IMG/VR virus record: IMGVR_UViG_3300031227_002944
Coordinates: 1 to 40,805 of that record
DNA: 40,805 bases
From: a virus
Direction: 5' to 3' (one strand)
This document shows, one piece after another, positions 19,511 through 34,073 of the stretch. A program made the translations under genes and the position numbers. Numbering within the stretch: the first letter of the stretch is position 1; the number at the start of each line of letters is the position of its first letter. The notes beneath the pieces were generated by a model. That model did not search any database. It was given only the letters and a program-made list of their open reading frames with translations, and was not told the origin of the DNA.

Positions 19511-20313
19511 AAGTAAAGGAAATAGTATCCTCATTAAGCGCGGTAGTACCGATCGGTGCTTATGAGAACCTGAAGCCGGGGTTTGAAATCCGGATGGAGT
19601 TATCCGAAGGCGATGATATGGATCAGGCGTTCAAGTACGCGAACGATTATATCAGAAAGATGCTTGAGGGTGTATCTAACAACGCTAAAGCGGATCTGAT
19701 CCAGAAGCAGTACGCCGGGATCAGACTCTATGAGAAGGATGGCAAGAAGTATCCATCAGTTACTTCTATATTAGGATGGGATACTGATTGGAAGATCACC
19801 GAAGATGAGTTGCAACAGTACGGATCGCGCGGCACAATCGTGCATAAGCTGGCTGAGATCTATCTTAGGGAAGGCACTTGGGCGAATCCAGTAGATCTTC
19901 CAGAGCTTGAGAACGATGTCGCTGTACTGATGGGCGGATCTCGCAACCTAAGCTGGATAGATTGCTCCTATATTAAGTCGATTGAAGGCATTATGGGCGA
20001 TCTCAAGGTGATCCAGCAAGAGAATGAGCTGTATAACGATGAGAAGCTCTACGCGGGCCGCGCTGATGTGTTGTGCGTGTATAAGGGTAAACAGACTATC
20101 CTTGACTTTAAGACCGGCACAACTACTGATATGCGCCAACTGGCAGCTTATGCAGCTTGCTGTAAGGGTATTGAGCAGCTGGTGATCATACCGGTAGGGC
20201 CGACAACTAACAAGTCCGGGTTTAAGAAGCCGGTAGTATGTACGGATATAGCCGGGGAGTATAAGAAGTTCTTGTACGCTCGCGCTAAGTTTAGAGAGAG
20301 GTTTGGAATCTAA
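19507..20313 (+). CDS. Cas4/RecB-like PD-(D/E)XK exonuclease
   Basis: The 268-residue protein carries the motifs of the Cas4/RecB exonuclease superfamily: His113 in 'RGTIVHKLAEIYL', 'YAGRADVL' (Asp187), 'TILDFKTG' (Asp200, Lys202) and 'RQLAAYAACC' (Gln211, Tyr215). Residues 1-90 form a separate N-terminal region ('PIGAYENLKPGFEIRMEL...') that I do not recognise. It probably resects DNA for recombination or degrades host DNA. The next gene, across a hairpin, may encode a single-strand-binding partner. Confidence 0.85.
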   Translation: MKVKEIVSSLSAVVPIGAYENLKPGFEIRMELSEGDDMDQAFKYANDYIRKMLEGVSNNAKADLIQKQYAGIRLYEKDGKKYPSVTSILGWDTDWKITEDELQQYGSRGTIVHKLAEIYLREGTWANPVDLPELENDVAVLMGGSRNLSWIDCSYIKSIEGIMGDLKVIQQENELYNDEKLYAGRADVLCVYKGKQTILDFKTGTTTDMRQLAAYAACCKGIEQLVIIPVGPTTNKSGFKKPVVCTDIAGEYKKFLYARAKFRERFGI

Positions 20314-20339
20314 ATACTAATCTGTATGAATTAGTATTT
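20312..20339 (+). promoter_or_regulatory. Perfect AT-rich hairpin between nuclease and OB-like gene
   Basis: AAATACTAAT (20312-20321) and ATTAGTATTT (20330-20339) are perfect complements with an 8-base loop. It starts at the nuclease stop codon. It lacks GC content for a normal terminator and may be an RNA-processing, mRNA-stability or protein-binding site. Confidence 0.55.
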
Positions 20340-20370
20340 GTTAGTAGTTACACAACAAAAGGAGAATGAT

Positions 20371-20730
20371 ATGGTTATGTTAGGATCAGGTAATTATGTA
20401 AAGACAGCGGATGTGGAGAGTGGCGATGTTGTTACCATCAAGAGCGCCGGTGAATGGATCGAAAGCACTCGCTGGAAGTACGATGATGGCAATCCAAAGG
20501 TTGATTTCGTTCTGGATGTAGAGATCAAAGGCGTAGAGAAGAAGATGCGGCTGAATAAAACCAACCGCGATATACTGATGGATGCTTACGATTCAGATAC
20601 TGAAGCGTGGGTAGGTAAGACAGCGAATATCACTAAAGAGAAAGTTATGGTGGCTGGTAAGAGAATGGATTGTATAATCCTTCAAGTACCTTTCGCCGGA
20701 TCAGAATCACAGGATGAGTTTCCGGGATAA
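20371..20730 (+). CDS. Possible OB-fold single-strand DNA-binding-like protein
   Basis: The 119-residue product has the β-rich pattern common in small phage proteins encoded beside recombination nucleases: 'GDVVTIKSAGEW', 'KVDFVLDVEIKG', 'LNKTNRDILMDAYDSDTEAWVGKTANI' and a C-terminal acidic tail (ESQDEFPG). The acidic tip and β-barrel-like pattern suggest an SSB-type role, but no defining motif proves it. ATG 20371 follows AAAAGGAGAATGAT; the longer frame starting 20338 sits in the hairpin and is rejected. Confidence 0.6.
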   Translation: MVMLGSGNYVKTADVESGDVVTIKSAGEWIESTRWKYDDGNPKVDFVLDVEIKGVEKKMRLNKTNRDILMDAYDSDTEAWVGKTANITKEKVMVAGKRMDCIILQVPFAGSESQDEFPG

Positions 20731-20759
20731 AACAAACTGAAAAACAAAAGGAGAATAAC

Positions 20760-20852
20760 ATGTTAGCTCAAAACATAATATCGTTCTTATCGCAAGTTGT
20801 GTTCTATGTTACAGCAATAGTGGTAAGGACAGTTGGACAAGGAACAATGTGA
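20760..20852 (+). CDS. 30-residue small hydrophobic protein
   Basis: ATG 20760 after AAAAGGAGAATAAC opens a 30-residue frame with a continuous hydrophobic stretch (NIISFLSQVVFYVTAIVV) and a basic C-terminal side. The strong RBS supports translation. It overlaps the GTG start of the next gene. Confidence 0.5.
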   Translation: MLAQNIISFLSQVVFYVTAIVVRTVGQGTM

Positions 20853-21130
20853 TACACAAAGTCCGTAACCCATTCTATTGTAGAAAAGATCAGTTCCTGC
20901 CTGCCGGTTATCCGGGGCAGGTGCTGGTCGTGGGTATCCTCGCATCAGCCTTAACCGGGGATATTTATAGAATGACTATAGGCAAACAGAAAGACAAAGT
21001 GTACGAAGCTGAAACGCGCGCGATTAAAATGACAGCGCAGAAATGGATCAATAAAAAAGGACAGACAGTTATGATCACGCCGGTCGATCTTTTCATCGAA
21101 TTGGATCGCCAACAAAACATTTTTACATGA
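20849..21130 (+). CDS. Hypothetical protein (93 residues)
   Basis: It begins at GTG 20849, overlapping the previous stop (GTGA). The sequence is β-rich with basic patches ('GYPGQVLVVGILASALTGDIYRMTIG', 'MTAQKWINKKGQTVMITPVDLF'). No family recognised. It is the last gene before the 21136 promoter. Confidence 0.55.
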   Translation: MIHKVRNPFYCRKDQFLPAGYPGQVLVVGILASALTGDIYRMTIGKQKDKVYEAETRAIKMTAQKWINKKGQTVMITPVDLFIELDRQQNIFT

Positions 21131-21135
21131 TCGAC

Positions 21136-21164
21136 TTGACAAACAGAAAAACATTAGGTAAACT
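21136..21164 (+). promoter_or_regulatory. Near-consensus σ70 promoter upstream of the metabolic island
   Basis: -35 TTGACA (21136-21141), 17-bp spacer, -10 TAAACT (21159-21164). The expected start is near 21171, within the palindrome ATCATGAT (21171-21178), a possible operator. The first convincing gene begins almost 390 bases downstream at 21558, so the transcript would have a long leader. Confidence 0.8.
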
Positions 21165-21557
21165 AACTGCATCATGATCAACGAGTACACTCACAGCTTC
21201 TGTACATTAAATCTTTTCAACAATTTAAGAACTCGGTTCTCTACATCAGAGATAAAACAAGGTATGATCTTTGATCTATCTGTTTCCGGGTTCTTTTCTT
21301 TTATAGGTGTTTTCTCAAGTTTGACCTCTAACCTCAAACTGGCATTATCCACTAAAGGGGATGAAGGGAAGCGATCACTAGCGGGTATAACCATTCCCCC
21401 CCGACAGAGAACAATCTGTAGACAGATCCAATAGGATCAATAATCAAGGTAGCTATCTACCTCGGCGTTTAGTCCTAAAGATAGTAGCTTAATAAGGGGT
21501 TCTCTGGAAAGAGAGTTTGCCCCGCTGCACCCAAAAAAGAAAAAAGGAGAAATAAAA
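21165..21557 (+). other. Long leader or structured region, possible ncRNA, origin or operator cluster
   Basis: No convincing gene on the + strand. It holds a 14-base palindrome ATCTGT-AG-ACAGAT (21414-21427), overlapping inverted repeat GATCC-AATA-GGATC (21425-21438), hairpin GGTAG-CTAT-CTACC (21448-21461), and a two-part stem GGGG (21496-21499)/CCCC (21520-21523) enclosing TTCTCT-GGAA-AGAGAG (21500-21515) with a TTTG bulge. A + frame from 21174 (86 codons) and a - strand frame (21191-21394) exist but look weak. The function is unknown; a structured 5' leader, small RNA or replication/packaging site all fit. Confidence 0.5.
21191..21394 (-). CDS. Weak candidate antisense ORF in the leader region
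   Basis: A 67-residue frame on the - strand (MVIPASDRFPSSPLVD..., ending in the basic helix ENRVLKLLKRFNVQKL) has codon use resembling the phage genes, including CCG and ATC after GA. Its only upstream purine signal is a 7-G run touching the ATG, which is too close. It would be the only - strand gene, so it is listed as a possibility only. Confidence 0.2.
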   Translation of the reverse strand: MVIPASDRFPSSPLVDNASLRLEVKLEKTPIKEKNPETDRSKIIPCFISDVENRVLKLLKRFNVQKL

Positions 21558-22724
21558 GTGGAATATCTGAAAGAAGAACCAAGAAAGTTTCTGATGGATG
21601 GAACGAAGATGGCATGGTACGGCGATCTGTTACAAGACTTTATGGATGGGAAAAGAATCGCGCCGGTAACTCTTGATATGGGGATCAGCAAGAATTGTAA
21701 TATGCGCTGCATCTTTTGTTATGGAGAATACCAACAGCCATCAACAGATTACATACCTACAGCGAAACTATTAGAGATCGCTAAGGATGCTGGGGAGTTA
21801 GGTGTTAAGGGTATAGCGATTATAGGTGATGGTGAACCTACCATGAATAGAGGGTTATATCCTTTCGTAGAAGCTTTGAAAGCTAACGGAGTTGAGCCGG
21901 CGATCGCAACGAATGGTTTACTTTTGGAAGATGAACAGACAGAGATCTTAACTAAAAACTGTTCTTGGCTGCGATTCACGATCTGCGCTGTAGGCGAGAA
22001 GTACCGCCAGATCCATAAGAAAACGCCGGAAGGATCTTTTGAGAAGATGCGGCACAACATAGCGCATGCTGTTAAACATAAGGGTAATTGTACTATAGGA
22101 CTTCAGATGGTACTTGTTCCGGAATGTTTCGATCAGGTGATCCCGCTGGCGCAGCTGGGTATAGAGCTGGGTGTGGATTATGTACAGATCAAGCAATTCT
22201 CAGATCCGGGTGAAGGTATGACGATGCACTTTGATATGAACCAGTATAAGACTATAAGAGATCTTCTGGAAGAAGCTGAGAAAATGTCAACTCCAGAAAC
22301 TGAGATAATCATCAAGTGGAAAGCTATGGAAGATAGCACTAACATCACGATGGAACAGAAATGGGAGTTTGATCGTTGTATAGATCTGCCGTTCTTGTTC
22401 CAGATCTCCGGGAATGGTAAGTGTTATCCTTGCGGTTATCTATTCAACCATGAAGATTATTGCTACGGCGATCTTACCAAGCAGAGCTTCAAAGAGATAG
22501 TAACTGGTGAGAGATATTGGAGTGTTATAGAAAAAATATCTAAGATGGATCTCAAGGATCTATGTACCGGACAATGCCGGCATAGCTGTGGTAACGAGTT
22601 TATGTGTAAATTTATTAAGGAATATAATGGAAACGCTAAAGAAACTATTGTAAAGATCTGCGGTAGTGAAGATCAGTATAATAAACTAATGGCGAATCCG
22701 CCTGAACACATGTCTTTTATATGA
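21558..22724 (+). CDS. Radical SAM/SPASM-type enzyme
   Basis: The 388-residue protein has the radical-SAM cluster motif CNMRCIFC (Cys47, 51, 54), 'IIGDGEPTMNRG' as the GGE-like SAM-binding motif, and a C-terminal Cys-rich region ('GKCYPCG', 'CTGQCRHSC', 'FMCKF') like a SPASM/Twitch domain binding extra Fe-S clusters. SPASM enzymes modify peptides, sugars or small metabolites; the substrate is not deducible. It starts at GTG 21558 behind AAAGGAGAAA and is the first gene of the metabolic island. Its stop overlaps the second radical-SAM gene. Confidence 0.9.
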   Translation: MEYLKEEPRKFLMDGTKMAWYGDLLQDFMDGKRIAPVTLDMGISKNCNMRCIFCYGEYQQPSTDYIPTAKLLEIAKDAGELGVKGIAIIGDGEPTMNRGLYPFVEALKANGVEPAIATNGLLLEDEQTEILTKNCSWLRFTICAVGEKYRQIHKKTPEGSFEKMRHNIAHAVKHKGNCTIGLQMVLVPECFDQVIPLAQLGIELGVDYVQIKQFSDPGEGMTMHFDMNQYKTIRDLLEEAEKMSTPETEIIIKWKAMEDSTNITMEQKWEFDRCIDLPFLFQISGNGKCYPCGYLFNHEDYCYGDLTKQSFKEIVTGERYWSVIEKISKMDLKDLCTGQCRHSCGNEFMCKFIKEYNGNAKETIVKICGSEDQYNKLMANPPEHMSFI

Positions 22725-23560
22725 ATAAAATAGTTATACCAGATCATTTCAATTATTGCAGCGCGTTTATCACATTCGCGTGCAACATGTCGTGTTCCTA
22801 CTGTATCAACAAATACAACGGACTCCATAAATATAAACAGATGTCAGCTGCGGATTGGATCAAAGGACTCAACCGGATACAAACCCGGAAGGATCTTCCG
22901 ATCACGATCACCGGCGGCGAGCCTACAGTATATCCCGGATTTTACGAGCTAATCAATGGGATAGATAAGAAGATCCCGGTAGATCTATTGACTAATGGTC
23001 TGTTCGATATGGATGAATTTACGAGTAAGATCCCGCCAAATAGACTCAAGCGTGATGCGAAATACGCTTCGATCCGGTTTTCGTTCCATCCCGGTCAGAC
23101 AGATGCGCGTGAGATCGTACTCTTAGCGCATGCTATGGGTTATCATGGCTATTCTGTAGGGATCTGGGCGGTAGATACCGGGGATGATAGGATAACTGAA
23201 GCTCGCAGACTCGCTGGATGTTATGATGTAGATTTTAGGATGAAAGAATATCTAGATGCTACTCATGGGAACTATAAATACCCTGATGGCTTAGATGGCA
23301 AACGCAAGAAGTGTCTATGTAAGATGTCGGAACTCTTAATAGCGCCAGATGGCAGGCTGTTTAGATGCCATCATGATCTGTATCATGGAATCAACTCTTA
23401 CGGCCATATCTTAGATGATAAGGTGAACCTACCTACAGACTTCTTGCCTTGTGATAACTACGGACTATGTTCACCATGCGATCTGAAATTGAAGTTTGAT
23501 AGGTTTCAGGAGCTGGGGCATTGTTCTGTAACTATAAAGGAGCAAGATGAAAAAGAGTAA
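22721..23560 (+). CDS. Second radical SAM enzyme
   Basis: The 279-residue protein has CNMSCSYC (Cys21, 25, 28) and a clear 'ITGGEPTVYPG' (GGEP 65-68). Additional Cys near the C-terminus ('CLCKM', 'RCHHD', 'PCDNYGLCSPCD') suggest an auxiliary Fe-S cluster. Overlap with the previous gene (ATGA at 22721) points to a paired function, with both enzymes acting on one product or pathway. The substrate is unknown. It overlaps the next gene by 14 bases. Confidence 0.9.
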   Translation: MNKIVIPDHFNYCSAFITFACNMSCSYCINKYNGLHKYKQMSAADWIKGLNRIQTRKDLPITITGGEPTVYPGFYELINGIDKKIPVDLLTNGLFDMDEFTSKIPPNRLKRDAKYASIRFSFHPGQTDAREIVLLAHAMGYHGYSVGIWAVDTGDDRITEARRLAGCYDVDFRMKEYLDATHGNYKYPDGLDGKRKKCLCKMSELLIAPDGRLFRCHHDLYHGINSYGHILDDKVNLPTDFLPCDNYGLCSPCDLKLKFDRFQELGHCSVTIKEQDEKE

Positions 23561-24008
23561 AATTCAGCCGTATGGATCAAGAGGAACTATAAAGAAGAAA
23601 GTTGAGCGCAAACCATTCACTTATTCATTCGCAGAACTGATCGATAAGCTATCAATCGTATCCCGGAAAGAGTATTACGGATTGCCGGGCGCGCGGAAAG
23701 AGTTGGATCTTATAATGAGCTGGCTGAACGATGCAGGGATAGAAGCCTACACACTTCTTTCTATTATGAGGATCACTCAGGCTAACGCGGATATATGGAA
23801 CAAAGAACATGAGATGCGTAACGCGACAGTAGGCGAGATGCCAGAAAGTGTGGTTGGCAGGATCGCTGAACAGGTCAGAGAATACAACAAGACAAGAACG
23901 CGCTATATGAACGAGCTTTCAAAGGCAGTAGGAGATTCTCAAGTTATGGAGAAGATCAGGCATTTGAGCGAGGAAGTCTATGATAAATACTACAATCAAG
24001 GCGAATAA
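23547..24008 (+). CDS. Helical hypothetical protein between radical SAM and transketolase genes
   Basis: The 153-residue product has a basic N-terminus (KKSKIQPYGSRGTIKKK), then 'FTYSFAELIDKLSIVSRKEYYG', which recalls small helical proteins found beside sugar-biosynthesis and glycosyltransferase genes, followed by long charged helices ending '...EEVYDKYYNQGE'. I cannot name a function. It overlaps the genes on both sides (14 and 29 bases), so it is translated as part of the same unit. Confidence 0.7.
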   Translation: MKKSKIQPYGSRGTIKKKVERKPFTYSFAELIDKLSIVSRKEYYGLPGARKELDLIMSWLNDAGIEAYTLLSIMRITQANADIWNKEHEMRNATVGEMPESVVGRIAEQVREYNKTRTRYMNELSKAVGDSQVMEKIRHLSEEVYDKYYNQGE

Positions 24009-24657
24009 GCTCAGGAAAGAAGTGCTGAGCGTAGCTATCCGGAACAAGATGGGCCATATCGCGCCATCTCTCTCCTGCTTGGATATATTAACGATGCTGC
24101 ATTACAAGATCGCTGATCCCAAAGACACTATTATCTTATCTAAAGGGCATGGATGTTACGGCTTATACGCGATCTGGGCTGATCTGGGGCTGATAACACG
24201 CGAGAAGTGGTCGAAATTCGATCTCCCCGGATGCGTAGATGGTTACGGATCGCTTGGTCATGGGCTGCCGGTAGCTGTCGGAGTCGCTTACGCTAACAAA
24301 AAGCTATGTAATGGTTTGCATACTTGGGTGATTGTAGGTGATGGCGAGATGCAGGAAGGATCGAATTGGGAAGCTTTATCGTTTATGTACCATCATGATC
24401 TTAGGAATATAACAGTTATCATAGATGATAATGGATTACAAGCGATGGATAGGATCGACAATGTTATGCACCAGATCCTGAGCAACAGGCTGAAGGGCTG
24501 GGGTTTGAATGTTTATAAATGCGATGGCCATAATCACGCTGAGTTAGAAGGTCTGAAGTTCAAGCCGCAGGTTCTTATCGCTAAGACGATTAAAGGCTAT
24601 GGCGTGGAATATATGGAAAATAAAGCTGAATGGCATTTTAGGTGTCCTAAAACATAG
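23980..24657 (+). CDS. Transketolase N-terminal subunit (TPP pyrophosphate domain)
   Basis: The 225-residue protein is the PP half of transketolase, which moves two-carbon units between sugar phosphates using thiamine diphosphate. Visible motifs: 'SKGHGCYGLYA' (54-63), 'GSLGHGLPVAVG' (90-101), and the TPP/Mg motif 'GDGEMQEGSNWEA' (120-132) with 'IIDDN' (147-151). Split transketolases of this size occur in bacterial O-antigen and capsule clusters. The partner half is the gene at 24941, separated only by a small inserted gene. Start 23980 is preceded by GAGGAAG. Confidence 0.92.
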   Translation: MINTTIKANKLRKEVLSVAIRNKMGHIAPSLSCLDILTMLHYKIADPKDTIILSKGHGCYGLYAIWADLGLITREKWSKFDLPGCVDGYGSLGHGLPVAVGVAYANKKLCNGLHTWVIVGDGEMQEGSNWEALSFMYHHDLRNITVIIDDNGLQAMDRIDNVMHQILSNRLKGWGLNVYKCDGHNHAELEGLKFKPQVLIAKTIKGYGVEYMENKAEWHFRCPKT

Positions 24658-24660
24658 GGG

Positions 24661-24671
24661 GATAAGATGAA
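24661..24671 (+). repeat. Short imperfect direct repeat, left side of possible cassette
   Basis: GATAAGATGAA here and GATAAGGATGAA at 24928-24939 bracket the small gene between the transketolase halves. They differ by one inserted base, so this is weak evidence for insertion. Confidence 0.35.
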
Positions 24672-24957
24672 TGATTTTACTGTTATTAAAGACCAGAGAA
24701 TAAGAACAAAAGTTTGTAAGTTAATGTCTGATATGCTAGATAATCCAGATGATTGTGGCATATATCCCACATCAGAGTTTATGTCAAAGATGGAAGATTT
24801 TATTCTTGAGATTAGGAACGAAGCCATTGGATGGGCTTGGGCTGAAGCCTGTACTCAGTTAGATTCAGGTAAAGATCCTAGAAAACATGAACAAGGCAAT
24901 CTTCTGATAGACTCGGCAAGAGACTTAGATAAGGATGAAAATGGTAAACAGAAATAA
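24667..24957 (+). CDS. Hypothetical protein interrupting the transketolase gene pair
   Basis: The 96-residue product is acidic and helical ('ISEF'-type charged helices, 'AIGWAWAEACTQLDSGKDPRKH'). No family recognised. It lies between the two transketolase halves, has an RBS (TAGGGGGATAAG), contains a single GATC although neighbours have many, and is bracketed by short imperfect repeats. It was probably inserted into an older two-gene transketolase unit. Its 3' end overlaps the next gene. Confidence 0.65.
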   Translation: MNDFTVIKDQRIRTKVCKLMSDMLDNPDDCGIYPTSEFMSKMEDFILEIRNEAIGWAWAEACTQLDSGKDPRKHEQGNLLIDSARDLDKDENGKQK

Positions 24958-25393
24958 TATAATAGATCATTTGGTAGAGACTTTCAAGGATGAGCGGTAC
25001 TATCTCCTGATCTGCGATTGCGGGTTTGCTAAAGTCGATGCGCTGCAAGAGAAGTATCCGGATCGTGTGATCAACTGCGGGATCATGGAGCAGGCTACAG
25101 TAGGGATCGCAGCAGGGATGGCTCAGGCTGGGATGATCCCGATAATCTATTCGATAGCAGCTTTCGCGGTGTACCGGGCGCTTGATCAGATCCGAAGCGA
25201 TATTGTGCTTATGAACCGGAATGTCAAGATCATAGGTAACGGATCAGGTGATTTTTTCAAAGCTCTGGGCGAATGTCATTGTGTATATGATGATGATATA
25301 GATATTCTCAGGATAATCGATATGCCAGTTTATGAAGGAGATCAGTTTGAATCATGGATAAGAAGCGAAAAAGCGGGATATATCAGAGTATGA
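24941..25393 (+). CDS. Transketolase C-terminal subunit (pyrimidine-binding domain only)
   Basis: The 150-residue protein is the Pyr domain: 'CGIMEQATVGIAAGMAQAGMIPIIYSIAAFAVYRALDQIR', with Glu50 as the catalytic residue contacting the TPP pyrimidine ring. The third transketolase domain is absent, making the pair smaller than most split transketolases. I prefer ATG 24941, five bases after AAGGA; ATG 24935 lies on the RBS itself. It should form a heterotetramer with the 23980 product. The stop overlaps the next start (ATGA at 25390). Confidence 0.88.
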   Translation: MVNRNNIIDHLVETFKDERYYLLICDCGFAKVDALQEKYPDRVINCGIMEQATVGIAAGMAQAGMIPIIYSIAAFAVYRALDQIRSDIVLMNRNVKIIGNGSGDFFKALGECHCVYDDDIDILRIIDMPVYEGDQFESWIRSEKAGYIRV

Positions 25394-25968
25394 GTATAGC
25401 AGTTTGTATGCCTACACATAATGAAGATCCAATAGTGATCCAATCTGTAGTGGCCAGAATACGAGCTGTTATAGGGGAAAGCGGTCATATTTGCGTGTAT
25501 AATGATGAACAGGGTAGGGGCAAGGGATATGCTCTTAGAATGGCTCTCAGAGCTGCAGAAGTGTATAATCCGGATTATTACATATTCATTGATGGAGATG
25601 GTGATATTGATCCGGAACAGATAGGGAAAATTGCGCTGCATTTATCTATGGGATACGATATTGTAGTCGGCAAGAAGAAGATGCCAACAAAACTTGATCG
25701 GAAGATCCTCACATTCGCATCCCGGTTGTGGATTAAGCTGCTATTTGGTATAAAAGTTGACACTCAGACCGGGCTTAAAGGGTTCAATTATAAGCCGGAA
25801 TGGGAAAGAGATGGCTGGGCGTTTGATGTAGAGATCTTGTATAATGCGAAGAAGATGGGTAAAAGTATGAAAGAAGTACCTGTTTATGCTATAGTTTCAT
25901 CCGGGAAGTCGATCAGAGATATTATGTCAACTTTGTGGGATACGATAAAAATAAGGATGGGGTTATGA
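25390..25968 (+). CDS. GT2 glycosyltransferase, dolichyl/polyprenyl-phosphate-sugar synthase-like
   Basis: The 192-residue protein has a GT-A fold pattern: 'MSIAVCMPTHNED', 'QGRGKGYALRMALRAA' and the metal/nucleotide-sugar motif 'IDGDGDIDPEQI' (DGD 68-70), then 'DTQTGLKGF'. This order is typical of dolichyl-phosphate mannose/glucose synthases, which put a sugar on a polyprenyl-phosphate carrier. No membrane anchor is present. An upstream ATG at 25354 would overlap the transketolase gene with poor RBS spacing, so ATGA 25390 is chosen. The last two codons (Gly-Leu) have been changed by the cassette inserted after it. Confidence 0.85.
   Translation: MSIAVCMPTHNEDPIVIQSVVARIRAVIGESGHICVYNDEQGRGKGYALRMALRAAEVYNPDYYIFIDGDGDIDPEQIGKIALHLSMGYDIVVGKKKMPTKLDRKILTFASRLWIKLLFGIKVDTQTGLKGFNYKPEWERDGWAFDVEILYNAKKMGKSMKEVPVYAIVSSGKSIRDIMSTLWDTIKIRMGL
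25945..25961 (+). repeat. 17-bp direct repeat flanking an inserted gene (left)
   Basis: ATAAAAATAAGGATGGG is identical to 26404-26420, 459 bases away. It spans the end of the glycosyltransferase gene and supplies the RBS for the inserted gene. Confidence 0.9.
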
Positions 25969-26396
25969 AGAAAACTATAGACGGACTTGGTGAAGTATTG
26001 AATTGGTGGGAAGGCATGAAGATGTGCTTCACCAAAAAAGACAAGGAATGGAAAGAATTATGTCAGGGAGAGGTAGACCTTAAACACGCTATGGCTGTAT
26101 TTCGGAGGTTGCTTGAGGTTTTATATCCATTACAGACATTACAAATAACCAAAGCTAGCGGGAGGACAGATATGGAAAACATCATGGAAGATAAAAGACC
26201 CATAAAAAGAATAACGATACATAGTAACGAACCCGAAGGAGAGGCATCTTATATTGTTGACCCTAGGTGGTATGATGAAATAAAACCATATCACGAAAAT
26301 GGAGAAATGGCTTCTGTGGTATGGTTCGCAATCTATAAAGACAATGCAATGGTTTCAAGAGTCAATTCTAGATATGTAGATGCTATAAGTTATTAA
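25965..26396 (+). CDS. Hypothetical protein in an inserted cassette
   Basis: The 143-residue product has a helical, Trp/Met/Lys-rich N-terminal half and a β-rich C-terminal half ('PIKRITIHSNEPEGEASYIVDPRWYDEIKPYHENGEMASVVWFAIYKD'). No family recognised. It sits between 17-bp direct repeats, contains no GATC although neighbouring genes have several per 200 bp, and interrupts an ATGA-coupled glycosyltransferase pair. An internal in-frame ATG at 26172 has its own strong RBS (GGGAGGA), so a shorter 74-residue form is possible. Confidence 0.7.
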   Translation: MKKTIDGLGEVLNWWEGMKMCFTKKDKEWKELCQGEVDLKHAMAVFRRLLEVLYPLQTLQITKASGRTDMENIMEDKRPIKRITIHSNEPEGEASYIVDPRWYDEIKPYHENGEMASVVWFAIYKDNAMVSRVNSRYVDAISY

Positions 26397-26403
26397 ACAC
26401 ACT

Positions 26404-26420
26404 ATAAAAATAAGGATGGG
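26404..26420 (+). repeat. 17-bp direct repeat flanking an inserted gene (right)
   Basis: Identical to 25945-25961. It provides the RBS of the next glycosyltransferase. Removing one repeat plus the 442 bases between restores a perfect ATGA stop/start overlap between the two glycosyltransferase genes. Confidence 0.9.
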
Positions 26421-26423
26421 AAC

Positions 26424-27119
26424 ATGAAAGTATCGATCATAATACCGAATCATGGTAGGGATATATCCGCGACAATCCAAGCTGTTAAGGATCTGAAGGA
26501 TGTTGAACTGCTTGAGGTCGATTTGCTGAAGGAGCGATCTGTACAGCGTAACAGAGGGATCAAGGAAGCTAAAGGAAAATATATCTTCATGTTAGATAGT
26601 GATCAAGTACCTACAAAGGCGTTGGTGCTTGAGTGCATATACATCATGGAAGCGTATCCGGCATGTCAGGGGATCTATATCCCGGAGATTATTGTAGGTG
26701 CTGATTGGTTCACAAGGCTCAGGAGATTTGAAAGACAGTTTTATACTTCTACACCGATCGATGTCGTGCGGTTTGTCAGGGCGAGTAACTGCCCGAAATT
26801 CGATGAAACACTCACCGGGCCAGAAGATGCTGATTGGGATCTCCGGATCAAAGGTGAGAAGCGGCAGAGTAAGAACTCGCTATATCATCATGATAACATC
26901 AATTTACGCGATTATATCGGCAAGAAATCGTATTATACCCGGAGTATGAGCAAATTCTTAGAGAAGAACCCGGATGCTAAGGTGCTGAAAGCTTGGTATC
27001 GTATATTTGGGGTATTCATGGAGAACGGCAAGTGGCGGCAGCTGGCTAAACATCCGATCATGGCGTTCAAACTGTACCTTCTTATTTTTATAAGAGGGAT
27101 AATTTACTTACGAAAATGA
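26424..27119 (+). CDS. GT2 family glycosyltransferase
   Basis: The 231-residue protein begins with the GT2 signature 'KVSIIIPNHGRD', has 'SVQRNRGIKEAKGKYIFMLDSDQVP' with the metal-binding DSD (58-60), and 'TGPEDADWDLRIK', where ED (134-135) is the likely catalytic base region. A hydrophobic, basic C-terminal segment ('FKLYLLIFIRGIIYL') may attach it to the membrane. It likely adds a sugar to a lipid-linked or polysaccharide acceptor. It overlaps the B12-radical-SAM gene (ATGA at 27116). Confidence 0.88.
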   Translation: MKVSIIIPNHGRDISATIQAVKDLKDVELLEVDLLKERSVQRNRGIKEAKGKYIFMLDSDQVPTKALVLECIYIMEAYPACQGIYIPEIIVGADWFTRLRRFERQFYTSTPIDVVRFVRASNCPKFDETLTGPEDADWDLRIKGEKRQSKNSLYHHDNINLRDYIGKKSYYTRSMSKFLEKNPDAKVLKAWYRIFGVFMENGKWRQLAKHPIMAFKLYLLIFIRGIIYLRK

Positions 27120-28576
27120 AAATACTACTATTCAATCCATATTGTACTTTCGATCATAGCGCGTATGTGTTCTATCGCGCTTCTATACCTTACGCTCTGA
27201 TGTATATTGCAGCGTATCTCAAGAAGCACTCTATTCTTCCCAAGATCTACGAGTTGGGGATATTCAATGAGAAGGATGTTATCCGGGATGGTGAATATAT
27301 CCGTTGTGGTATATCAGATTGGGAGATTAAGAAGATCCTGATCCGGGAGCAGCCGGATATAGTGGGGATCAGCACCATGTACACAGTATTTCATAAAGAC
27401 TATGTGGAGATCATCAAGATGATTAAGGATTACGATCCGAAGATCCATGTAGTAGTCGGCGGGAATCATGCTTCAAGCTTTCCGGAGATGATGCTGGAAG
27501 CCGGGGCTGATCAGGTGGTAGTCGGTGAAGGCGAGCAGGCTTTCTTAGATATATGTAATGGCGCGAGAGAACCTATCGTGCATAGAGAGCTTATAAAGGA
27601 TCTTGATACAATACCATTCCCGGCAACAGAATCTATCGATTTTGAACGGCATATATCTGTAAACAATCCTTTTGTCATGAGAACGCCAGTAACAGGGATA
27701 ATAACGAGTAGGGGATGCCCTAATAATTGCATCTACTGTACAGCTAATGGAGTATGGCAGCATAAGTGGAGAGGTAGAAGCCCGAAAAACATAGTGGATG
27801 AGATAGAATGGATGATAAAACTTCATGGGATAAAAGAGTTTCATTTCTTAGATGATAATATCGCTGTTGATAAGAATCGGTTGTTTGAGATATGTGATGA
27901 GATCATAAAGCGAAAGATTGATATTCGATGGGCCAACTGTATACCATATTGGGTATTAGATGAGCCATTACTCAGGCTGATGAAGAAGTCCGGGTGTTAT
28001 CGGCTCACCTTTGGGATAGAGTCCGGAGATCTTGAGGTCAGGAAGTATATTGGTAAGAATTACACATTACAGAAGGCTAAGGATGTGATCCGATACGCTA
28101 ATAGTATAGGACTTTGGACTATTACTAACAATATAGTGGGGTTTCCGGAAGAAACTGAAGCTCAGATCCGGCGTACTATCGAGTTTGCTAAAGAATGTGG
28201 TACGGATTTCGCTTGTTTCTTCGCGTTGCTGCCGCATCCATCGGCCAGAGTGTACAAGGATTTCCTTAAATGGGGATTGATCGATCCTAAAGATCAGATG
28301 TCAGCGTTGAACGAAGGCGGCGCGCCTACAAGATATTTCAGTAAAGAACAGATCAAAGATTTCCAGAAGCAAGCGTATAGTGAGTTTATAACTTTCAAGA
28401 TGTGGGAATACATAAAGAAACCTTGGCTGTTGTTAGGTAAGATCCGATCGGTAGAGGATCTCAGGTATTTGATCCGGATAGGTTGGTTGGGGTTGCGGAT
28501 GAAACTAAGACAAAACAAGAAAGTATCCAGTAGTAAAGACTTTATCTACGGAAAGGAGCAATATGTCAAAAAATAA
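27116..28576 (+). CDS. B12-binding-domain radical SAM enzyme
   Basis: The 486-residue protein has an N-terminal cobalamin-binding-type Rossmann domain (residues 1-150: 'DIVGISTMYTVFH', 'VVVGGNHASSFPE', 'VVVGEGEQAF') and a radical-SAM core with CPNNCIYC (Cys201, 205, 208), 'FLDDNIA' and 'FGIESGD'. No DXHXXG lower-ligand motif, as in many members. Such enzymes perform methylations, rearrangements or deoxygenations and are frequent in natural-product and surface-glycan clusters. The substrate is unknown. It overlaps the next glycosyltransferase by 14 bases. Confidence 0.92.
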   Translation: MKILLFNPYCTFDHSAYVFYRASIPYALMYIAAYLKKHSILPKIYELGIFNEKDVIRDGEYIRCGISDWEIKKILIREQPDIVGISTMYTVFHKDYVEIIKMIKDYDPKIHVVVGGNHASSFPEMMLEAGADQVVVGEGEQAFLDICNGAREPIVHRELIKDLDTIPFPATESIDFERHISVNNPFVMRTPVTGIITSRGCPNNCIYCTANGVWQHKWRGRSPKNIVDEIEWMIKLHGIKEFHFLDDNIAVDKNRLFEICDEIIKRKIDIRWANCIPYWVLDEPLLRLMKKSGCYRLTFGIESGDLEVRKYIGKNYTLQKAKDVIRYANSIGLWTITNNIVGFPEETEAQIRRTIEFAKECGTDFACFFALLPHPSARVYKDFLKWGLIDPKDQMSALNEGGAPTRYFSKEQIKDFQKQAYSEFITFKMWEYIKKPWLLLGKIRSVEDLRYLIRIGWLGLRMKLRQNKKVSSSKDFIYGKEQYVKK

Positions 28577-29429
28577 GCTTGCGATAATTTTATGTAACTT
28601 CAATGATAGCCGGTTTCTAATTGATTTCGTGATGGCGATGAAGAATCAAGATCCGGATGAGTTCATTGTGGTGGATGATCGGTCAACTGATAGAAGCGTT
28701 GAGCTTTTAGAGCATATTCAGAAGATAGCGCATATCAAGATAGTTAAAAATGATGGGGTACATAGTCCTTTTGGCGCGTTTGTTAAAGGATGCGAATCAA
28801 CTGATGCGGAATTTGTAGCTTGTTTCTCAGCTGATGATATTCCTAAGCGTAATTATCTATCATCTATGCGGGAAGTTATTAGGAAATATCCGATGGTGGA
28901 TGTCTATACTTGTAACGCGGATGTGATCCGGGAAAATATGATGTATAAGAGAACGCTGCTGCCGTTCACCGCGTACATATCTCCGGAATATGCGGTTAAG
29001 ATGTTTCAGGGCGGGTATGCTAAAAACATCAATCAATGCGGGATCGTTGTGAAGCGTTCATGGGTTATGAAATGCTGGGTAGGCGGCGGCAAGGATACTG
29101 AAGTTAATTTTGATTGCATGTATTCTTTTTCGTCTATTTTTAAGAAAGGTTTTATAAATGTAGGGAAACATCTTGTTATGTATAGATCTTATCCAAATAG
29201 CTTTGGAGCTTCCGGAACAAATAAGCAGATCAAGAAGTACATACAAATACATAAGAACTTTTGTAGGCCGCAGGAGTATGCACTAACATCTGCAAGTGGG
29301 ATATGGGGCGCAAAGGCACGCTGGATGGCGCTTATAGCGCTTTGGGGTATAATGAAGATGCCGTTGTGGGCGAGAAGGAAATTCTATGATTGGTTTTATT
29401 CTTACGATCAAAAGGTAGAGAAACTATGA
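28563..29429 (+). CDS. GT2 family glycosyltransferase
   Basis: The 288-residue protein starts 'KLAIILCNFNDSRFL', followed by 'FIVVDDRSTDRSVELLEHI' (nucleotide-binding acidic pair 38-39) and 'FVACFSADDIPKRNYL' with the metal-binding acidic motif at 91-92. It resembles O-antigen-type GT2 transferases. The C-terminus is aromatic and basic. RBS AAAGGAGC precedes ATG 28563, and the stop overlaps the epimerase start. Confidence 0.88.
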   Translation: MSKNKLAIILCNFNDSRFLIDFVMAMKNQDPDEFIVVDDRSTDRSVELLEHIQKIAHIKIVKNDGVHSPFGAFVKGCESTDAEFVACFSADDIPKRNYLSSMREVIRKYPMVDVYTCNADVIRENMMYKRTLLPFTAYISPEYAVKMFQGGYAKNINQCGIVVKRSWVMKCWVGGGKDTEVNFDCMYSFSSIFKKGFINVGKHLVMYRSYPNSFGASGTNKQIKKYIQIHKNFCRPQEYALTSASGIWGAKARWMALIALWGIMKMPLWARRKFYDWFYSYDQKVEKL

Positions 29430-29944
29430 AGATAGGATTATGTGGGGCTTCCGGGCGGATAGGGTATCCTTTATTTGAATATTTGAAATCTAAGGGTAAC
29501 AAAGTTCTGGGTACTTACCATCACCATAAGATAACCGGACTTGTGCGGTACGATCTCCGGAAAGATTCTATCTCTTTTTTCGATAAATGTGAGTATGTGA
29601 TCTTGGCTGCGGCTTATTGCAATACACCATTTTGTGAGAATAACAGGGTGGAAGCTTACTGGCTGAATGTATGGCGTACAAAAGAGCTGCTGCAACATTT
29701 GTCAGATAAGAAGATCCCAACTTTATTTATCTCATCGATAGCTGCGAAAGTGAATCTTGCGGATACTTATGGGAAATATAAACGATTGGTAGAGAGATAT
29801 ATTGTTCAGGAAGGTCTGGCTGTAGAGTATATCCGGCCGGGTAAGACAGGCAAAGATAATGTCGGTCAACTATGCGAGGAAATCTATGAAGGTATTAAAC
29901 TTAGGCTGCGGAAAAAAGATAAAGAACCATGTAATCAATGTTGA
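29426..29944 (+). CDS. Short SDR / RmlD-like NAD(P)-dependent sugar reductase or epimerase
   Basis: The 172-residue protein has a Rossmann fold glycine motif GASGRIG (7-13), 'YVILAAAYCNTPFCE' as the second cofactor segment, and the catalytic set Ser104, Tyr115 and Lys119 (YGKYK). The pattern is closest to RmlD-like reductases acting on nucleotide sugars, but it is far shorter than the usual ~290 residues, so most of the substrate domain is missing. ATG 29426 is chosen because it forms the ATGA overlap; an upstream ATG at 29390 lies within the previous gene. Confidence 0.8.
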   Translation: MKIGLCGASGRIGYPLFEYLKSKGNKVLGTYHHHKITGLVRYDLRKDSISFFDKCEYVILAAAYCNTPFCENNRVEAYWLNVWRTKELLQHLSDKKIPTLFISSIAAKVNLADTYGKYKRLVERYIVQEGLAVEYIRPGKTGKDNVGQLCEEIYEGIKLRLRKKDKEPCNQC

Positions 29945-30446
29945 TGTGATGCCGTATCCAAGAGTGGATGAAGTGTTAGATCTATCTTATTTCCCTTGGC
30001 CTTGGAAAGACAATAGTATCGATGGGATACATGCTTCGCATATAATGGAGCATTTTCCTGATCAGTTCGATTTTATTATGGAATGTCATAGGGTGCTGAA
30101 GCCCGGCGGTTTTCTCCGGATCGTTGGGCCGCACTCATCTTGTATAACTTCAGTAGGATGTCTGGGCCATTACCGGACTTATGCTTATAGCACTTTTGAT
30201 GATTATCTGAGTAACCCATTTTATCTGTTCAAAGATCCGCTGTTCAAGACTACTGAGATGCAGCTTAGATGGTGGCATGAGGAAATTGATGCTGAAGGGA
30301 ATTTTCCAAGATGGATGATTGGGCCTATTAGGATAATAGATTGGTTCATGAATTGGATTATAAGCGCTTCGCCAAGACTATTTGAGAATGTGTTTTGCAG
30401 TTTTATACAATGCCGGGAAGTTATCTGGCAAGGGGTGAAGTTATGA
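29886..30446 (+). CDS. Class I SAM-dependent methyltransferase
   Basis: The 186-residue protein has motif I 'VLNLGCGKK' (3-11), an acidic residue after strand 2 (Asp20), 'SIDGIHASHIMEHF' and 'CHRVLKPGGFLRIVGP' (68-81), all typical of small-molecule or sugar methyltransferases. It overlaps the SDR gene by 59 bases in another frame. ATG 29886 follows GAGGAAATCT; ATG 29859 is weaker. It may cap or decorate a glycan, consistent with neighbours. Confidence 0.88.
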   Translation: MKVLNLGCGKKIKNHVINVDVMPYPRVDEVLDLSYFPWPWKDNSIDGIHASHIMEHFPDQFDFIMECHRVLKPGGFLRIVGPHSSCITSVGCLGHYRTYAYSTFDDYLSNPFYLFKDPLFKTTEMQLRWWHEEIDAEGNFPRWMIGPIRIIDWFMNWIISASPRLFENVFCSFIQCREVIWQGVKL

Positions 30447-30535
30447 AGGAGAATGATTTTATCACTTTGGTCGGATCTCTATTTTCTATCGTAGTATTAG
30501 TTGTGATCTTCGTTATAGTAAGGTGGTTTATCTGA
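30443..30535 (+). CDS. 30-residue single-pass membrane peptide
   Basis: The frame starts at ATGA overlapping the methyltransferase stop and follows AAGGGGTGAAG. It encodes an acidic start (MKEND) then one continuous hydrophobic helix (LFSIVVLVVIFVIV) ending in RWFI. Position and translation signal support a real small gene. The role is unknown. Confidence 0.55.
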   Translation: MKENDFITLVGSLFSIVVLVVIFVIVRWFI

Positions 30536-30546
30536 GGGGTGAAAAT

Positions 30547-30672
30547 ATGAGCAGCGCGACTTATAGTTTTAGATTTAACAGGGCTAAGAGAAAATGCCCT
30601 ACATGCGGTAAGAAGTTCAAGCCTAATTCACCGGGCCAGATCTATTGTAAAAAGGAGTGTAGAAAATCATGA
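30547..30672 (+). CDS. 41-residue zinc-ribbon protein
   Basis: ATG 30547 follows GAGGGGTGAAA. The product is basic with 'CPTCGKKFKPNSPGQIYC' and a final 'EC', a treble-clef or zinc-ribbon-like metal site. It overlaps the next radical-SAM gene (ATGA at 30669). Confidence 0.65.
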   Translation: MSSATYSFRFNRAKRKCPTCGKKFKPNSPGQIYCKKECRKS

Positions 30673-31640
30673 AGATCCATTATAAGCCTGATCATTATTC
30701 GCAACAGCGCCAGAAAGAGAAGAAGGTCAATATCTGGCCGGTAGTTATGGCGATGGAAGCTGAATGGTATCGGAAGAAAGGGCATAAAGTGTATTGGGAT
30801 ACTGATCCACAGGGATTTGTTGATAAGGTTATCACTAAGGCTGAAGGGTTGCCGTTCTTGGATCTCCCTAAGCCGGATCGATGTTTCAGTAATGCGTTTG
30901 ATAAGAAATATCAGAATAATGGTAATTTCAAGCATCATCCGGGTACTTATATCCAAGCAGCTTCCGGATGTTGGTGGGGTAAGTGTATTTTTTGCATAAA
31001 GAATGGTACAACTTATCAAGTCAGGCCGGTAGATGATGTGATCAATGAGATTAGGGAATGTAAATATTGGGGTTTCAAAGAGATCTTCGATGATTCTGAT
31101 ACTTTCCCTACAGGCGCATGGCTTAAAGAGTTTTGCGAGAAGGTTACGCCGCTGAAAGTTACGCTGGGCTGCAACATGAGATTCGGTGCGCTTAGTCCAG
31201 AAGATTATAAAATGATGAAACGCGCAGGGTTCAGGTTATTATTATATGGGTTAGAGAGCGCCAGCCAGACAACAGCGGATCTGATAAACAAGGGGATCAA
31301 TGTATGCCGGGCTATAGATGAGGTTAAACATGCGAGTATGCTTGGGCTTGAGCCGCATGTCGCTGTTATGTTCGGGTATCCTTGGGAAGATGAGTTTGAT
31401 GCAGAGAAAACATTAAGGGTTGTGCAGCATCTATTGCGTAAGGGGTATGCCAAGACCGCGCAGGCTTCGTTGTACACAGTTGGTTATACCGATCGCAATA
31501 TTGATGCGATGAAATATATACATAAGATCTATCATGCAGCGTTCTACCCGGATTTCTGGATAAATAAACTAATGGATATACGATGCTTAGATGATGTGAA
31601 ATATATCTGGCGAGGGATAAAATCATGCTTTGGAAAATAA
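30669..31640 (+). CDS. Radical SAM enzyme with CX4CX2C cluster motif
   Basis: The 323-residue protein has 'SGCWWGKCIFC' (Cys101, 106, 109), a CX4CX2C variant of the radical-SAM motif, then 'EIFDDSDTFP' and 'LLLYGLESAS', matching the core of B12-radical-SAM-type enzymes. The region before the cluster (about 95 residues) is shorter than a full cobalamin domain. The reaction is unknown; it is the fourth radical-SAM enzyme of the island. It overlaps the membrane transferase gene by 16 bases. Confidence 0.87.
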   Translation: MKIHYKPDHYSQQRQKEKKVNIWPVVMAMEAEWYRKKGHKVYWDTDPQGFVDKVITKAEGLPFLDLPKPDRCFSNAFDKKYQNNGNFKHHPGTYIQAASGCWWGKCIFCIKNGTTYQVRPVDDVINEIRECKYWGFKEIFDDSDTFPTGAWLKEFCEKVTPLKVTLGCNMRFGALSPEDYKMMKRAGFRLLLYGLESASQTTADLINKGINVCRAIDEVKHASMLGLEPHVAVMFGYPWEDEFDAEKTLRVVQHLLRKGYAKTAQASLYTVGYTDRNIDAMKYIHKIYHAAFYPDFWINKLMDIRCLDDVKYIWRGIKSCFGK

Positions 31641-32932
31641 TCATTATACTATGCGTTAATATGTTGTTGTATGCGCGTGCTTTGAGATGCGGGTATGTAT
31701 CAGATGATCTACCAGCGTTACAGCGCCGGAAAGAGAAAAAGATGCTTCCATTTGAAAGGATCTGGCAATCTGCGGTTTCTGGTAAACCGATGCTGGATCA
31801 TGGTATCAGTATGGCGGTACATGCGTTTTGTTGTGTCTTTATTTATACAGGGCTTGGTGCGAATAACATCTCGTTTTTTGCAGCGTTACTATTCTCAGCT
31901 AATCCGATAAACAATCAAGGATCGATCTGGATCTCTGGTAGAAACTATGCTTGGTGCGGGTTACTTATGATGTTATCAATGACATGCACTTTCTCAGCGC
32001 CGTTTGCTATGATAGGTGCGGTAGTAAGTTCAGCAGCGTATTTTGTGCCTATCGGATTTATAGGATCAGGTAAATGGTATCTTGTATTGTTCTTGCCTAT
32101 AGTATGGGCTGTATATTATACTCGGCTCAGGAATGAAGTGAAATCAAGGCGCGGGCATGAAGCTGTAGCTTTCGACAAGAAATTTGGCTGGGAAAAGATT
32201 GTTATAGCGATCAAGATATATGGTTGGTACTTCGGGTTATGTATTATACCTTTTCAGCTTACATGGTATCATTCGTTCATGCAATCCGGGGCTGGTGCGG
32301 GGAATGAGTTGGAGAAGAAGAAAGCGCTTCGGCTTGATTGGACTTTTTGGTTAGGCCTGAGTTTGATAGGATATTTGATCTATTCTGCGATCTGGAACTG
32401 GACTCCAGTAGCTTGGGGTATATTCTGGTACTCATGTAGTATCGCGCCGTACTTGAATATATTTAGGATGTCGCAAGAAATCGCTGAACGATATTGTTAT
32501 ATTGCTAATATAGGTATAATGTTCGCGTTAGCTAATTTACTTAACCCGATAGCTTTCGCGTTTATTTTGGGTGGGTATGTTATGCGCCTGATGGTACATA
32601 TACCCGCATATACTGATGATTACTGGCTTATAGAGCGTAGTGTAGCTGAAGATCCCGGCGCTTGGTACGCTTGGCATGTAAGAGCATTAAAGAGATGGCA
32701 GCAACAGGCGATCCGGGAAGCGCTTAACTGCTGGGTGATGGCTAAGATGATCTCGCCACAAGAATTTAAGATATTATTTAATATAGCAGTAGTCCTCAAG
32801 ATATTGAAACAGGATAAAGAAGCTGAAGAATATCTAAAACTCGCACAACAGAATGTGATCAAAGGGCAGGAAAAGATTTCAGATGAGTTAATTGTACAGT
32901 TCCGCAAAGGTCAATGTCCTATGTTGCATTAA
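31625..32932 (+). CDS. Multi-pass membrane protein resembling TMTC-type (GT-C) glycosyltransferases
   Basis: The 435-residue protein starts with a membrane segment and 'RCGYVSDDLPAL', with an acidic pair (27-28) in the first luminal loop as in GT-C enzymes. It continues with 'AALLFSANPINNQGSIWISGRNYAWCGLLMM', very like the 'HP-N-E-V-WISGR' region of TMTC/tetratricopeptide O-mannosyltransferases. Several further membrane helices follow, and the C-terminal ~90 residues ('AREALNCWVMAKMISPQ', 'KEAEEYLKLAQQ') look like TPR-type helices. It would transfer a sugar from a polyprenyl-phosphate donor on the outer side of the membrane. Partner: the 25390 product. Confidence 0.7.
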   Translation: MLWKIIIILCVNMLLYARALRCGYVSDDLPALQRRKEKKMLPFERIWQSAVSGKPMLDHGISMAVHAFCCVFIYTGLGANNISFFAALLFSANPINNQGSIWISGRNYAWCGLLMMLSMTCTFSAPFAMIGAVVSSAAYFVPIGFIGSGKWYLVLFLPIVWAVYYTRLRNEVKSRRGHEAVAFDKKFGWEKIVIAIKIYGWYFGLCIIPFQLTWYHSFMQSGAGAGNELEKKKALRLDWTFWLGLSLIGYLIYSAIWNWTPVAWGIFWYSCSIAPYLNIFRMSQEIAERYCYIANIGIMFALANLLNPIAFAFILGGYVMRLMVHIPAYTDDYWLIERSVAEDPGAWYAWHVRALKRWQQQAIREALNCWVMAKMISPQEFKILFNIAVVLKILKQDKEAEEYLKLAQQNVIKGQEKISDELIVQFRKGQCPMLH

Positions 32933-33643: not shown

Positions 33644-33826
33644 ATGGAGATTAAACAAGTAGAACTCAAGTCTGCTAACATTAAAGCGTTAGCTTCTATG
33701 GATAAGAGTATCCGGCTGGTGTTCGATGTCAACTTAGAAACTAACGAGGTGGATGTCAACGCGATCCATAATTTGCTATACAAACCGCTAATATTAGAGG
33801 TGAAAGAAGATGGCCAATACAACTAA
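33644..33826 (+). CDS. 60-residue hypothetical protein before small terminase
   Basis: The product is a small α/β sequence ('IKQVELKSANIKALASMDKSIRLVFDVNLETNEVDVNAIHNLL'). No family recognised. There is no RBS; the ATG lies about one base after the predicted transcription start. It overlaps the small terminase gene by 17 bases, so it may couple its translation. Confidence 0.55.
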   Translation: MEIKQVELKSANIKALASMDKSIRLVFDVNLETNEVDVNAIHNLLYKPLILEVKEDGQYN

Positions 33827-34073
33827 TCAAGAGAAAACTATTAAGCAGCTTTTTATCGGTAAGTGTTGGGCTTATCTTGACGAGAATTTTTATAAGTTCA
33901 ACCAGCAGAATAAGATTAAGATCGCTTTGGAGCTTTGCAAGAAGGATATACCGCAGGTGCTTGAAGGCGAGATAACATATACTCAGATGAAGCGTATCCT
34001 TGTCGAGCATAAAGTGTTGGCGCTTGATATTGGCGAGGATGTTCCGGATGCTATCAAGGAGCGTATGCAATGA
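33810..34073 (+). CDS. Probable small terminase subunit
   Basis: The 87-residue product is helical and charged ('QEKTIKQLFIGKCWAYLDENFYKFNQQNKIKIALELCKKDIPQVLEG') and lies immediately upstream of the large terminase, overlapping it by four bases. Small terminases recognise the packaging site and stimulate the large subunit. The short length fits some podoviral members. The call is mainly positional. Confidence 0.65.
   Translation: MANTTNQEKTIKQLFIGKCWAYLDENFYKFNQQNKIKIALELCKKDIPQVLEGEITYTQMKRILVEHKVLALDIGEDVPDAIKERMQ

Follow-up and report, generated by a model that had tools for sequence, protein, structure and literature searches.

An 11-kb island of glycosylation-type genes beside the terminase gene of an uncultured podovirus

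The IMG/VR virus record IMGVR_UViG_3300031227_002944 belongs to an uncultured virus of bacteria. Its 40,805 bases (from here: the window) contain at positions 21558-32932 an 11-kb island of genes on one strand. The island encodes four radical S-adenosylmethionine (SAM) proteins, a two-chain transketolase, three family 2 glycosyltransferases (GT2), a fragment of a short-chain dehydrogenase/reductase (SDR), a methyltransferase and a membrane protein resembling TMTC enzymes. An earlier reading of the letters without database searches (from here: the sequence-only reading) had named these enzyme classes, and all of them were recovered by Pfam and structure matches.

The first and last 257 bases of the window match at 98% (5 mismatches) and nearly all genes lie on the plus strand. 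Hence, the window represents an essentially complete, circularly permuted genome of approximately 40.5 kb, of which the island occupies about 28%. Podovirus markers are a head-to-tail connector (PF12236, E 3e-115) and the terminase (PF04466). The closest connector proteins in GenBank phages, those of HTVC010P-type pelagiphages and of a spring-water podovirus, are only about 31% identical, and a megablast search with window positions 1-24000 yielded no match among GenBank phages. Codon usage of the island is close to that of the structural genes (r = 0.96), with a G+C content at third codon positions of 0.436 vs 0.395.

Gene content and layout of the island

The island genes and the phage genes downstream are the following; identities refer to related viral contigs.

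rSAM1, 21558-22724, plus strand: radical SAM/SPASM protein, 388 aa (PF04055, E 1e-18; PF13186, E 9e-7); 65-69% identity in contigs G002 and L070
rSAM2, 22721-23560, plus strand: short radical SAM protein, 279 aa (PF04055, E 4e-11); 62% in L155
h3, 23547-24008, plus strand: small protein; identity 82% in L070, 59% in L155, 33% in G002
TKN, 23980-24657, plus strand: thiamine-diphosphate (PP) half of transketolase (PF00456, E 2e-13)
h5, 24667-24957, plus strand: 96-aa open reading frame (ORF) between the transketolase halves, no family
TKC, 24935-25393, plus strand: pyrimidine (PYR) half of transketolase (PF02779, E 3e-11)
GT_a, 25354-25968, plus strand: compact GT2, proposed polyprenyl-phosphate sugar synthase resembling dolichyl-phosphate-mannose synthase (DPMS), GtrB and ArnC
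h8, 25935-26396, plus strand: 153-aa ORF, no family; no relative found in other contigs
GT_b, 26424-27119, plus strand: GT2 (PF00535), one C-terminal membrane segment predicted from hydropathy; recurs in relatives
rSAM3, 27116-28576, plus strand: B12-binding radical SAM protein, 486 aa (PF04055, E 3e-27; PF02310, E 7e-19)
GT_c, 28563-29429, plus strand: GT2 (PF00535, E 6e-16); 54-58% in G002 and L070
SDR/epimerase-like, 29390-29944, plus strand: 184 aa, N-terminal NAD-binding part only (PF02719 and PF01370); 47% in L070, 57% in L071
MT, 29859-30446, plus strand: SAM-dependent methyltransferase (PF08241, E 3e-9), 52-64% in relatives; start uncertain, overlaps the SDR ORF
rSAM4, 30669-31640, plus strand: core radical SAM protein, 323 aa (PF04055, E 3e-11)
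TM, 31625-32932, plus strand: predicted membrane glycosyltransferase of the GT-C fold, 435 aa, with C-terminal tetratricopeptide repeats (TPR), TMTC-like; no Pfam match
Downstream phage anchor, 33810-35416, plus strand: small conserved ORF (33810-34073) and terminase large subunit (34070-35416; PF04466, E 3e-23), order kept in relatives

Neighbouring ORFs overlap by 4-86 nt or are separated by gaps of 9, 27 and 9 nt and one of 222 nt (30447-30668). The single tight run described by the sequence-only reading is thus seen in the overlaps and is interrupted once, by the 222-nt gap. The single promoter assumed for it was not borne out, as a promoter and terminator scan remained at chance level, with 51 promoter-like sites vs 50.7 expected. 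The 222-nt gap, located before rSAM4, holds two micro-ORFs, one of ~30 aa with one membrane segment and one of ~41 aa with a CxxC...C zinc-ribbon-like pattern. The true start of the SDR ORF is probably a later ATG. The protein h3 had no Pfam or PHROG match and co-travels with the rSAM1, rSAM2 and transketolase genes, while h5 breaks up a spacing that runs on without interruption in G002 and L155.

A conserved core and lineage-specific cassettes in related viruses

Most of the island genes recur in unchanged order, followed by the terminase gene, in two independent contigs, G002 (31.9 kb) and L070 (30.6 kb). The series is rSAM1, rSAM2, h3, TKN, TKC, GT_a, GT_b, rSAM3 (in G002), GT_c, methyltransferase, rSAM4 and TM. 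The island genes share 48-82% identity with their counterparts, except for a more divergent h3 in G002. No broken frames were found among the shared genes; the lone stop in the SDR of L070 reflects a match that overruns the gene end. Differences concern small genes, h5 and h8 being present in the window only, and a second, full-length transketolase pair that is added in G002.

Searches with the connector protein yielded 49 viral loci, and alignment scans led from TM to 50 and from rSAM4 to 39 viral loci. More than 40 further contigs keep rSAM4 and/or TM just upstream of the terminase gene, often together with GT_a. The locus, whose gene set the sequence-only reading had proposed to seek in other phages, is found at the same site in many related viruses. 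TM occurs in 37/37, rSAM4 in 32/37 and GT_a in 27/37 contigs of a set that was picked for the presence of TM or rSAM4 and includes several incomplete contigs, so that these counts are not prevalence figures.

Around this core at least four cassette types were distinguished, that of the window being type I. Type II encodes an amine-oxidase/UDP-galactopyranose mutase-like protein, GT2 enzymes and a GDP-mannose-dehydratase-like protein, with GT_a located after TM. Type III combines a methyltransferase-like protein, GT1 and GT2 enzymes and NAD-epimerases, in some cases with a DegT aminotransferase, and type IV has GT_b, GT2 and a methyltransferase. Pfam confirmed the sugar-enzyme assignments in the sibling cassettes; the methyltransferase-like protein of type III is without a Pfam match. 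Ordinary nucleotide-sugar enzymes replace the radical SAM and transketolase genes in the sibling cassettes. On a terminase tree that was built quickly, in which the L129 branch is very long and some of the terminases are divergent, cassette type requires 4 changes (minimum 3) vs 10.8 when shuffled. The cassettes are lineage-stable and follow the terminase phylogeny. Free shuffling of cassettes between phages had been expected, but the tree needs only these 4 changes.

Outside this group, TM, rSAM4, rSAM2, h3 and GT_a had no match in 50,697 GenBank phages, rSAM1 and rSAM3 had distant matches only, and the matches of TKN were mostly to bacterial-like records. With rSAM3 alone, no relative was confirmed among the viral contigs, the patterns being too specific, though G002 possesses an rSAM3 with 69% identity. 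No description of this locus was found in the literature. A scan of 84,980 species genomes with short patterns of rSAM4 alone returned one locus, which is another of these phages within a Saccharibacteria bin. This contig, L153 (RXKC01000030.1), is one of these phages, has a type II cassette and was binned into a Saccharibacteria metagenome-assembled genome from water treatment. It gives a weak host hint, which we do not take as host evidence because the binning of phage contigs is unreliable. A glycan-type biosynthesis locus is supported, whereas the likeness to a bacterial surface-glycan cluster that had been noted from the letters is not established, no close bacterial counterpart having come from the rSAM4-only scan. 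That this locus belongs to the phage is supported by its gene order and sequence relationships.

Predicted enzymes of the core and of the sugar module

TM was modelled with a pLDDT of 73 and a pTM of 0.74. In structural alignments with VIA-align, the top 20 matches were all proteins of the GT-C fold, among them Pmt4, ALG12, PglB, ArnT, AglB, PIG-U and Aft enzymes, and Pmt4 was aligned with a Z score of 15.1 over 275 residues at 4.9 Å. Helical membrane proteins can reach Z scores near 13 by chance; nonetheless, the listed matches are uniform in kind and consistent with the motifs. The GT-C matches cover residues 1-346 and TPR matches residues 344-430, about two TPR units. Asp27-Asp28 and His59 are invariant in 42 sequences, with the Asp pair in the loop after the first membrane helix, on the predicted outer side. 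No DUF1736 match to Pfam was obtained for any of these 42 phage proteins. A profile search in 380 genomes of the Patescibacteria, the phylum of the Saccharibacteria bin, recovered distant homologues from cells, 544-581 aa long and likewise made up of a GT-C and a TPR part, and one of them matched TM with an hhalign probability of 99%; since this was the sole phylum searched, these homologues have no bearing on the host. Based on the VIA-align alignment, the motifs and the cellular homologues, TM is predicted to be a GT-C glycosyltransferase that ends in a TPR tail and has TMTC-like homologues in cells, an assignment that is new here.

TMTC enzymes are described as GT-C proteins whose first lumenal loop holds a strictly conserved DD and whose C-terminus is formed by TPRs (PMC7801869). 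TM resembles TMTC and protein O-mannosyltransferases (PMT) in the predicted fold and in the DD of the first outer loop. It has C-terminal TPRs as well, though about two units instead of about ten; it is 435 aa long, shorter than its cellular homologues, and had no DUF1736 match.

For GT_a, the best PDB matches of its profile were the dolichyl-phosphate-mannose synthase 5mlz (E 6e-10), GtrB (4e-7) and ArnC (5e-7). The model (pLDDT 91.8) gave a fold ranking in agreement with the profile, with the DPMS 5mm1 at Z 21.1 and 2.1 Å over 184 residues and GtrB at Z 17.2. GT_b, used as a control, matched heparosan synthase B, GalT1 and PglI-type enzymes and reached DPMS only at 0.008. We propose here for the first time that GT_a is a polyprenyl-phosphate sugar synthase. 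Together, GT_a and TM look like a lipid-linked "charge and transfer" pair, similar to gtrB/gtrC without GtrA. If so assigned, the core comprises what one would expect for loading a sugar onto a polyprenyl carrier and for its transfer outside the membrane.

The third core protein, rSAM4, has the cysteine motif CX4CX2C and no B12-binding domain, and its gene adjoins TM in nearly all relatives. Longer relatives of ~460 aa with an extra N-terminal B12-binding-like part were noticed in contigs L144, L145, L147 and L149; this suggests that rSAM4 may have lost such a part.

PF04055 scored above the cut-off in all four radical SAM proteins of the island. The NCBIfam equivalog cut-offs (AprD4, HpnJ, QueE, MoaA and others) were not reached, all scores being far below; this includes the weak likeness of rSAM2 to QueE and MoaA. 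The closest solved structure to rSAM3 is AprD4 (6fd2, E 8e-17), a radical SAM enzyme of sugar deoxygenation in aminoglycosides.

The best solved structure for TKN is the N chain of a split transketolase (6yak, E 4e-35), and the GDG...DN motif is present. TKC, with the solved match 6yaj, keeps the catalytic-Glu motif as GIMEQ (GIxEQ), while the usual His-His reads C-H-C. In the window, G002, L155 and L051 it stops at YIR[VL] after the PYR domain, and the transketolase C-terminal domain is absent. The split transketolase of the sequence-only reading is accordingly present as PP and PYR halves on two chains, shortened by one domain. Like that of Carboxydothermus hydrogenoformans (6yaj, 6yak), it distributes PP and PYR over two chains and keeps the catalytic motifs; it differs in the PYR chain, which ends before the C-terminal domain, and in the C-H-C in place of His-His. 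A transketolase without this domain recurs, judged by its sequence, in three other phages, which is new here.

In L155, a phage with a different portal, rSAM1, rSAM2, h3, TKN and TKC travel together, and in L051 the radical SAM and transketolase genes are present with other genes between them. L051 is a siphovirus-type contig in which these genes lie among several sulfotransferase-like proteins with motifs of the FIHFPRTGGT type. The product of the module may be a carbon-extended or deoxygenated sugar.

Probable envelope glycosylation and rival explanations

In our view it is fairly probable that the island belongs to the phage and serves lipid-linked glycosylation at the envelope of the cell it infects. 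The data show what the genes encode, a core that stays constant, sugar genes that vary and cassettes that are stable within lineages; the direction of the pathway, its chemistry, its acceptor and outcome as well as the host and the benefit are inferred. In this scheme, a sugar donor with an unusual modification would be made by rSAM1, rSAM2, h3, the minimal transketolase, rSAM3, the SDR and the methyltransferase. GT_a would charge host polyprenyl phosphate with this sugar at the inner membrane face, and a flippase outside the island, presumably that of the host, would turn over the charged lipid. TM would then move the sugar to an acceptor outside the membrane, which could be a surface glycan, a lipid or an exported protein. 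GT_b and GT_c may extend or build the glycan, the methyltransferase may elaborate it as well, and rSAM4 may introduce a change common to all cassette versions. By analogy to gtr phages and pelagimyophage clusters, the outcome would be an altered surface and receptor, blocking other phages. On the same analogy the locus probably alters host receptors, and superinfection exclusion or serotype change is plausible.

Several observations weigh against this interpretation. Among 11 non-redundant loci that were selected by the connector and have at least 3 kb upstream of the terminase gene, TM is present in 7 and absent in 4; hence, the locus is not universal in the clade. The TM model is of moderate quality, and with Foldseek alone no match fell below E 0.001, TPR proteins occupying the top rows. 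GT_a lacks the membrane helices that DPMS and GtrB have at the C-terminus, and no GtrA-type flippase was found in the island, either by Pfam or as a small multi-helix protein. The transketolase and radical SAM proteins are parts of a sugar-building logic without a named product.

The other readings were weighed against the same data. Glycosyltransferases and QueE-like radical SAM enzymes act in DNA modification of other phages, and rSAM2 is weakly QueE-like, so that the island might make and glycosylate a modified base against restriction. However, rSAM2 scores well short of the cut-off for QueE, none of the window proteins scanned was recognised as a nucleotide-modifying partner, and the sibling cassettes contain sugar-nucleotide enzymes of the surface-polysaccharide kind. 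A GT-C membrane enzyme would have no place in such a pathway; its combination with a proposed polyprenyl-phosphate sugar synthase favours the envelope, which the sequence-only reading had preferred, over phage DNA as the site of action. We regard DNA hypermodification as very improbable. Only a little better placed, and still quite unlikely, is a decoration of the phage tail or capsid or of an ejected protein instead of the host surface. In its favour, the island adjoins structural genes, and a cytosolic location would be expected for GT_b, GT_c and the sugar module. Against it stand the core, which consists of a GT-C membrane enzyme with its catalytic Asp loop on the predicted outer side and a polyprenyl-phosphate glycosyltransferase, and the assembly of virion proteins, which takes place in the cytosol.

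The radical SAM/transketolase module could instead make a cofactor, lipid or secondary metabolite that aids the cell, the glycosyltransferases being separate cargo. This is consistent with the families nearest to rSAM3 and rSAM4 (HpnJ, BchE and P-methyltransferases, which act on lipids, tetrapyrroles and phosphinates) and with the occurrence of the module without TM in other phage types (L155, L051). In L155, though, the module again lies amid glycosyltransferase-like genes, and GT_a and TM persist where ordinary sugar genes replace the module, so that we hold this explanation to be unlikely. Such clusters are typical of bacterial surface-polysaccharide loci, and an assembly chimera, by which the sequence-only reading stood to be refuted, or a recently captured bacterial locus had to be weighed as well. 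A chimera cannot explain the locus and was rejected, since G002 and L070 carry the same ordered island with like flanks; the core in more than 40 other contigs, the codon usage and the cassette types that track the terminase phylogeny also speak against capture, leaving this explanation a negligible probability.

Among known systems, envelope glycosylation by the island comes closest to gtrABC of P22-like Salmonella and Shigella phages, in which the bactoprenol-phosphate sugar synthase GtrB and the sequence-variable membrane transferase GtrC alter the surface glycan, with a known effect on phage infection (PMC3688519). By family and fold, a polyprenyl-phosphate glycosyltransferase (GT_a) and a membrane transferase (TM) would be common to both. 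The island differs in the lack of GtrA, the TMTC-like transferase with TPRs, a probable unusual sugar of its own, a length of ~11 kb vs three genes and its position next to the terminase. In pelagimyophages, a long hypervariable host-recognition cluster with glycosyltransferases and radical SAM cassettes was read as a host-surface change that excludes other phages (PMC7029224). That cluster belongs to large myophages, is rich in GT8 and joined to tail-fibre genes, and neither a DPMS-like plus GT-C core nor a transketolase was described for it. Podoviridae sp. ctQWt234 (MW202801, Manatee Spring), a circular podovirus of 40 kb, encodes a row of an Fe-S oxidoreductase (24% identical to rSAM1), two glycosyltransferases, a methyltransferase and a NodB-like gene; this row is shorter, is located between capsid and tail genes and is without TM, rSAM4, GT_a and transketolase.

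The locus is therefore a variant of phage surface-glycan modification and not a new kind of system, albeit a real, unusual and coherent one. If envelope glycosylation is correct, phage serotype conversion extends from small gtr operons using host sugars to full pathways that the phage itself encodes, including the chemistry of the sugar and a TMTC-like transferase, and that are fixed in a widespread clade of uncultured phages. A bolder version, which we offer tentatively and think doubtful, is a clade-wide core beside the terminase (TMTC-like O-glycosyltransferase, DPMS-like charger and radical SAM protein) in uncultured podoviruses worldwide, served by lineage-specific sugar factories. In the window, the minimal two-domain transketolase and the radical SAM enzymes would then place an undescribed sugar onto exported proteins or surface glycan of the host, and this would be the first case in which a phage encodes protein O-glycosylation of the TMTC/PMT kind. 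If the envelope reading holds, the new radical SAM and minimal transketolase enzymes and the small soluble DPMS-like enzyme offer targets for assays, and the locus would allow surface remodelling of uncultured bacteria by phages to be put to the test. The pair rSAM4-TM beside the terminase could serve as a marker for finding more such loci.

None of the window proteins scanned was recognised as a DNA polymerase, primase, helicase, RNA polymerase or integrase; it is notable that a 40-kb podovirus devotes 28% of its genome to glycan genes and has no recognised polymerase. The sole recognised early gene in the region 16631-21434 encodes a VRR-NUC nuclease (17678-17992). A 1618-aa ejection-type virion protein (5565-10421) contains a Zeta-toxin/P-loop kinase-like domain at residues 445-583 (PF06414, E 7e-14). 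Two related tandem proteins after the capsid gene (214-708 and 40253-40729), which become adjacent once the genome is circularised, are perhaps decoration proteins.

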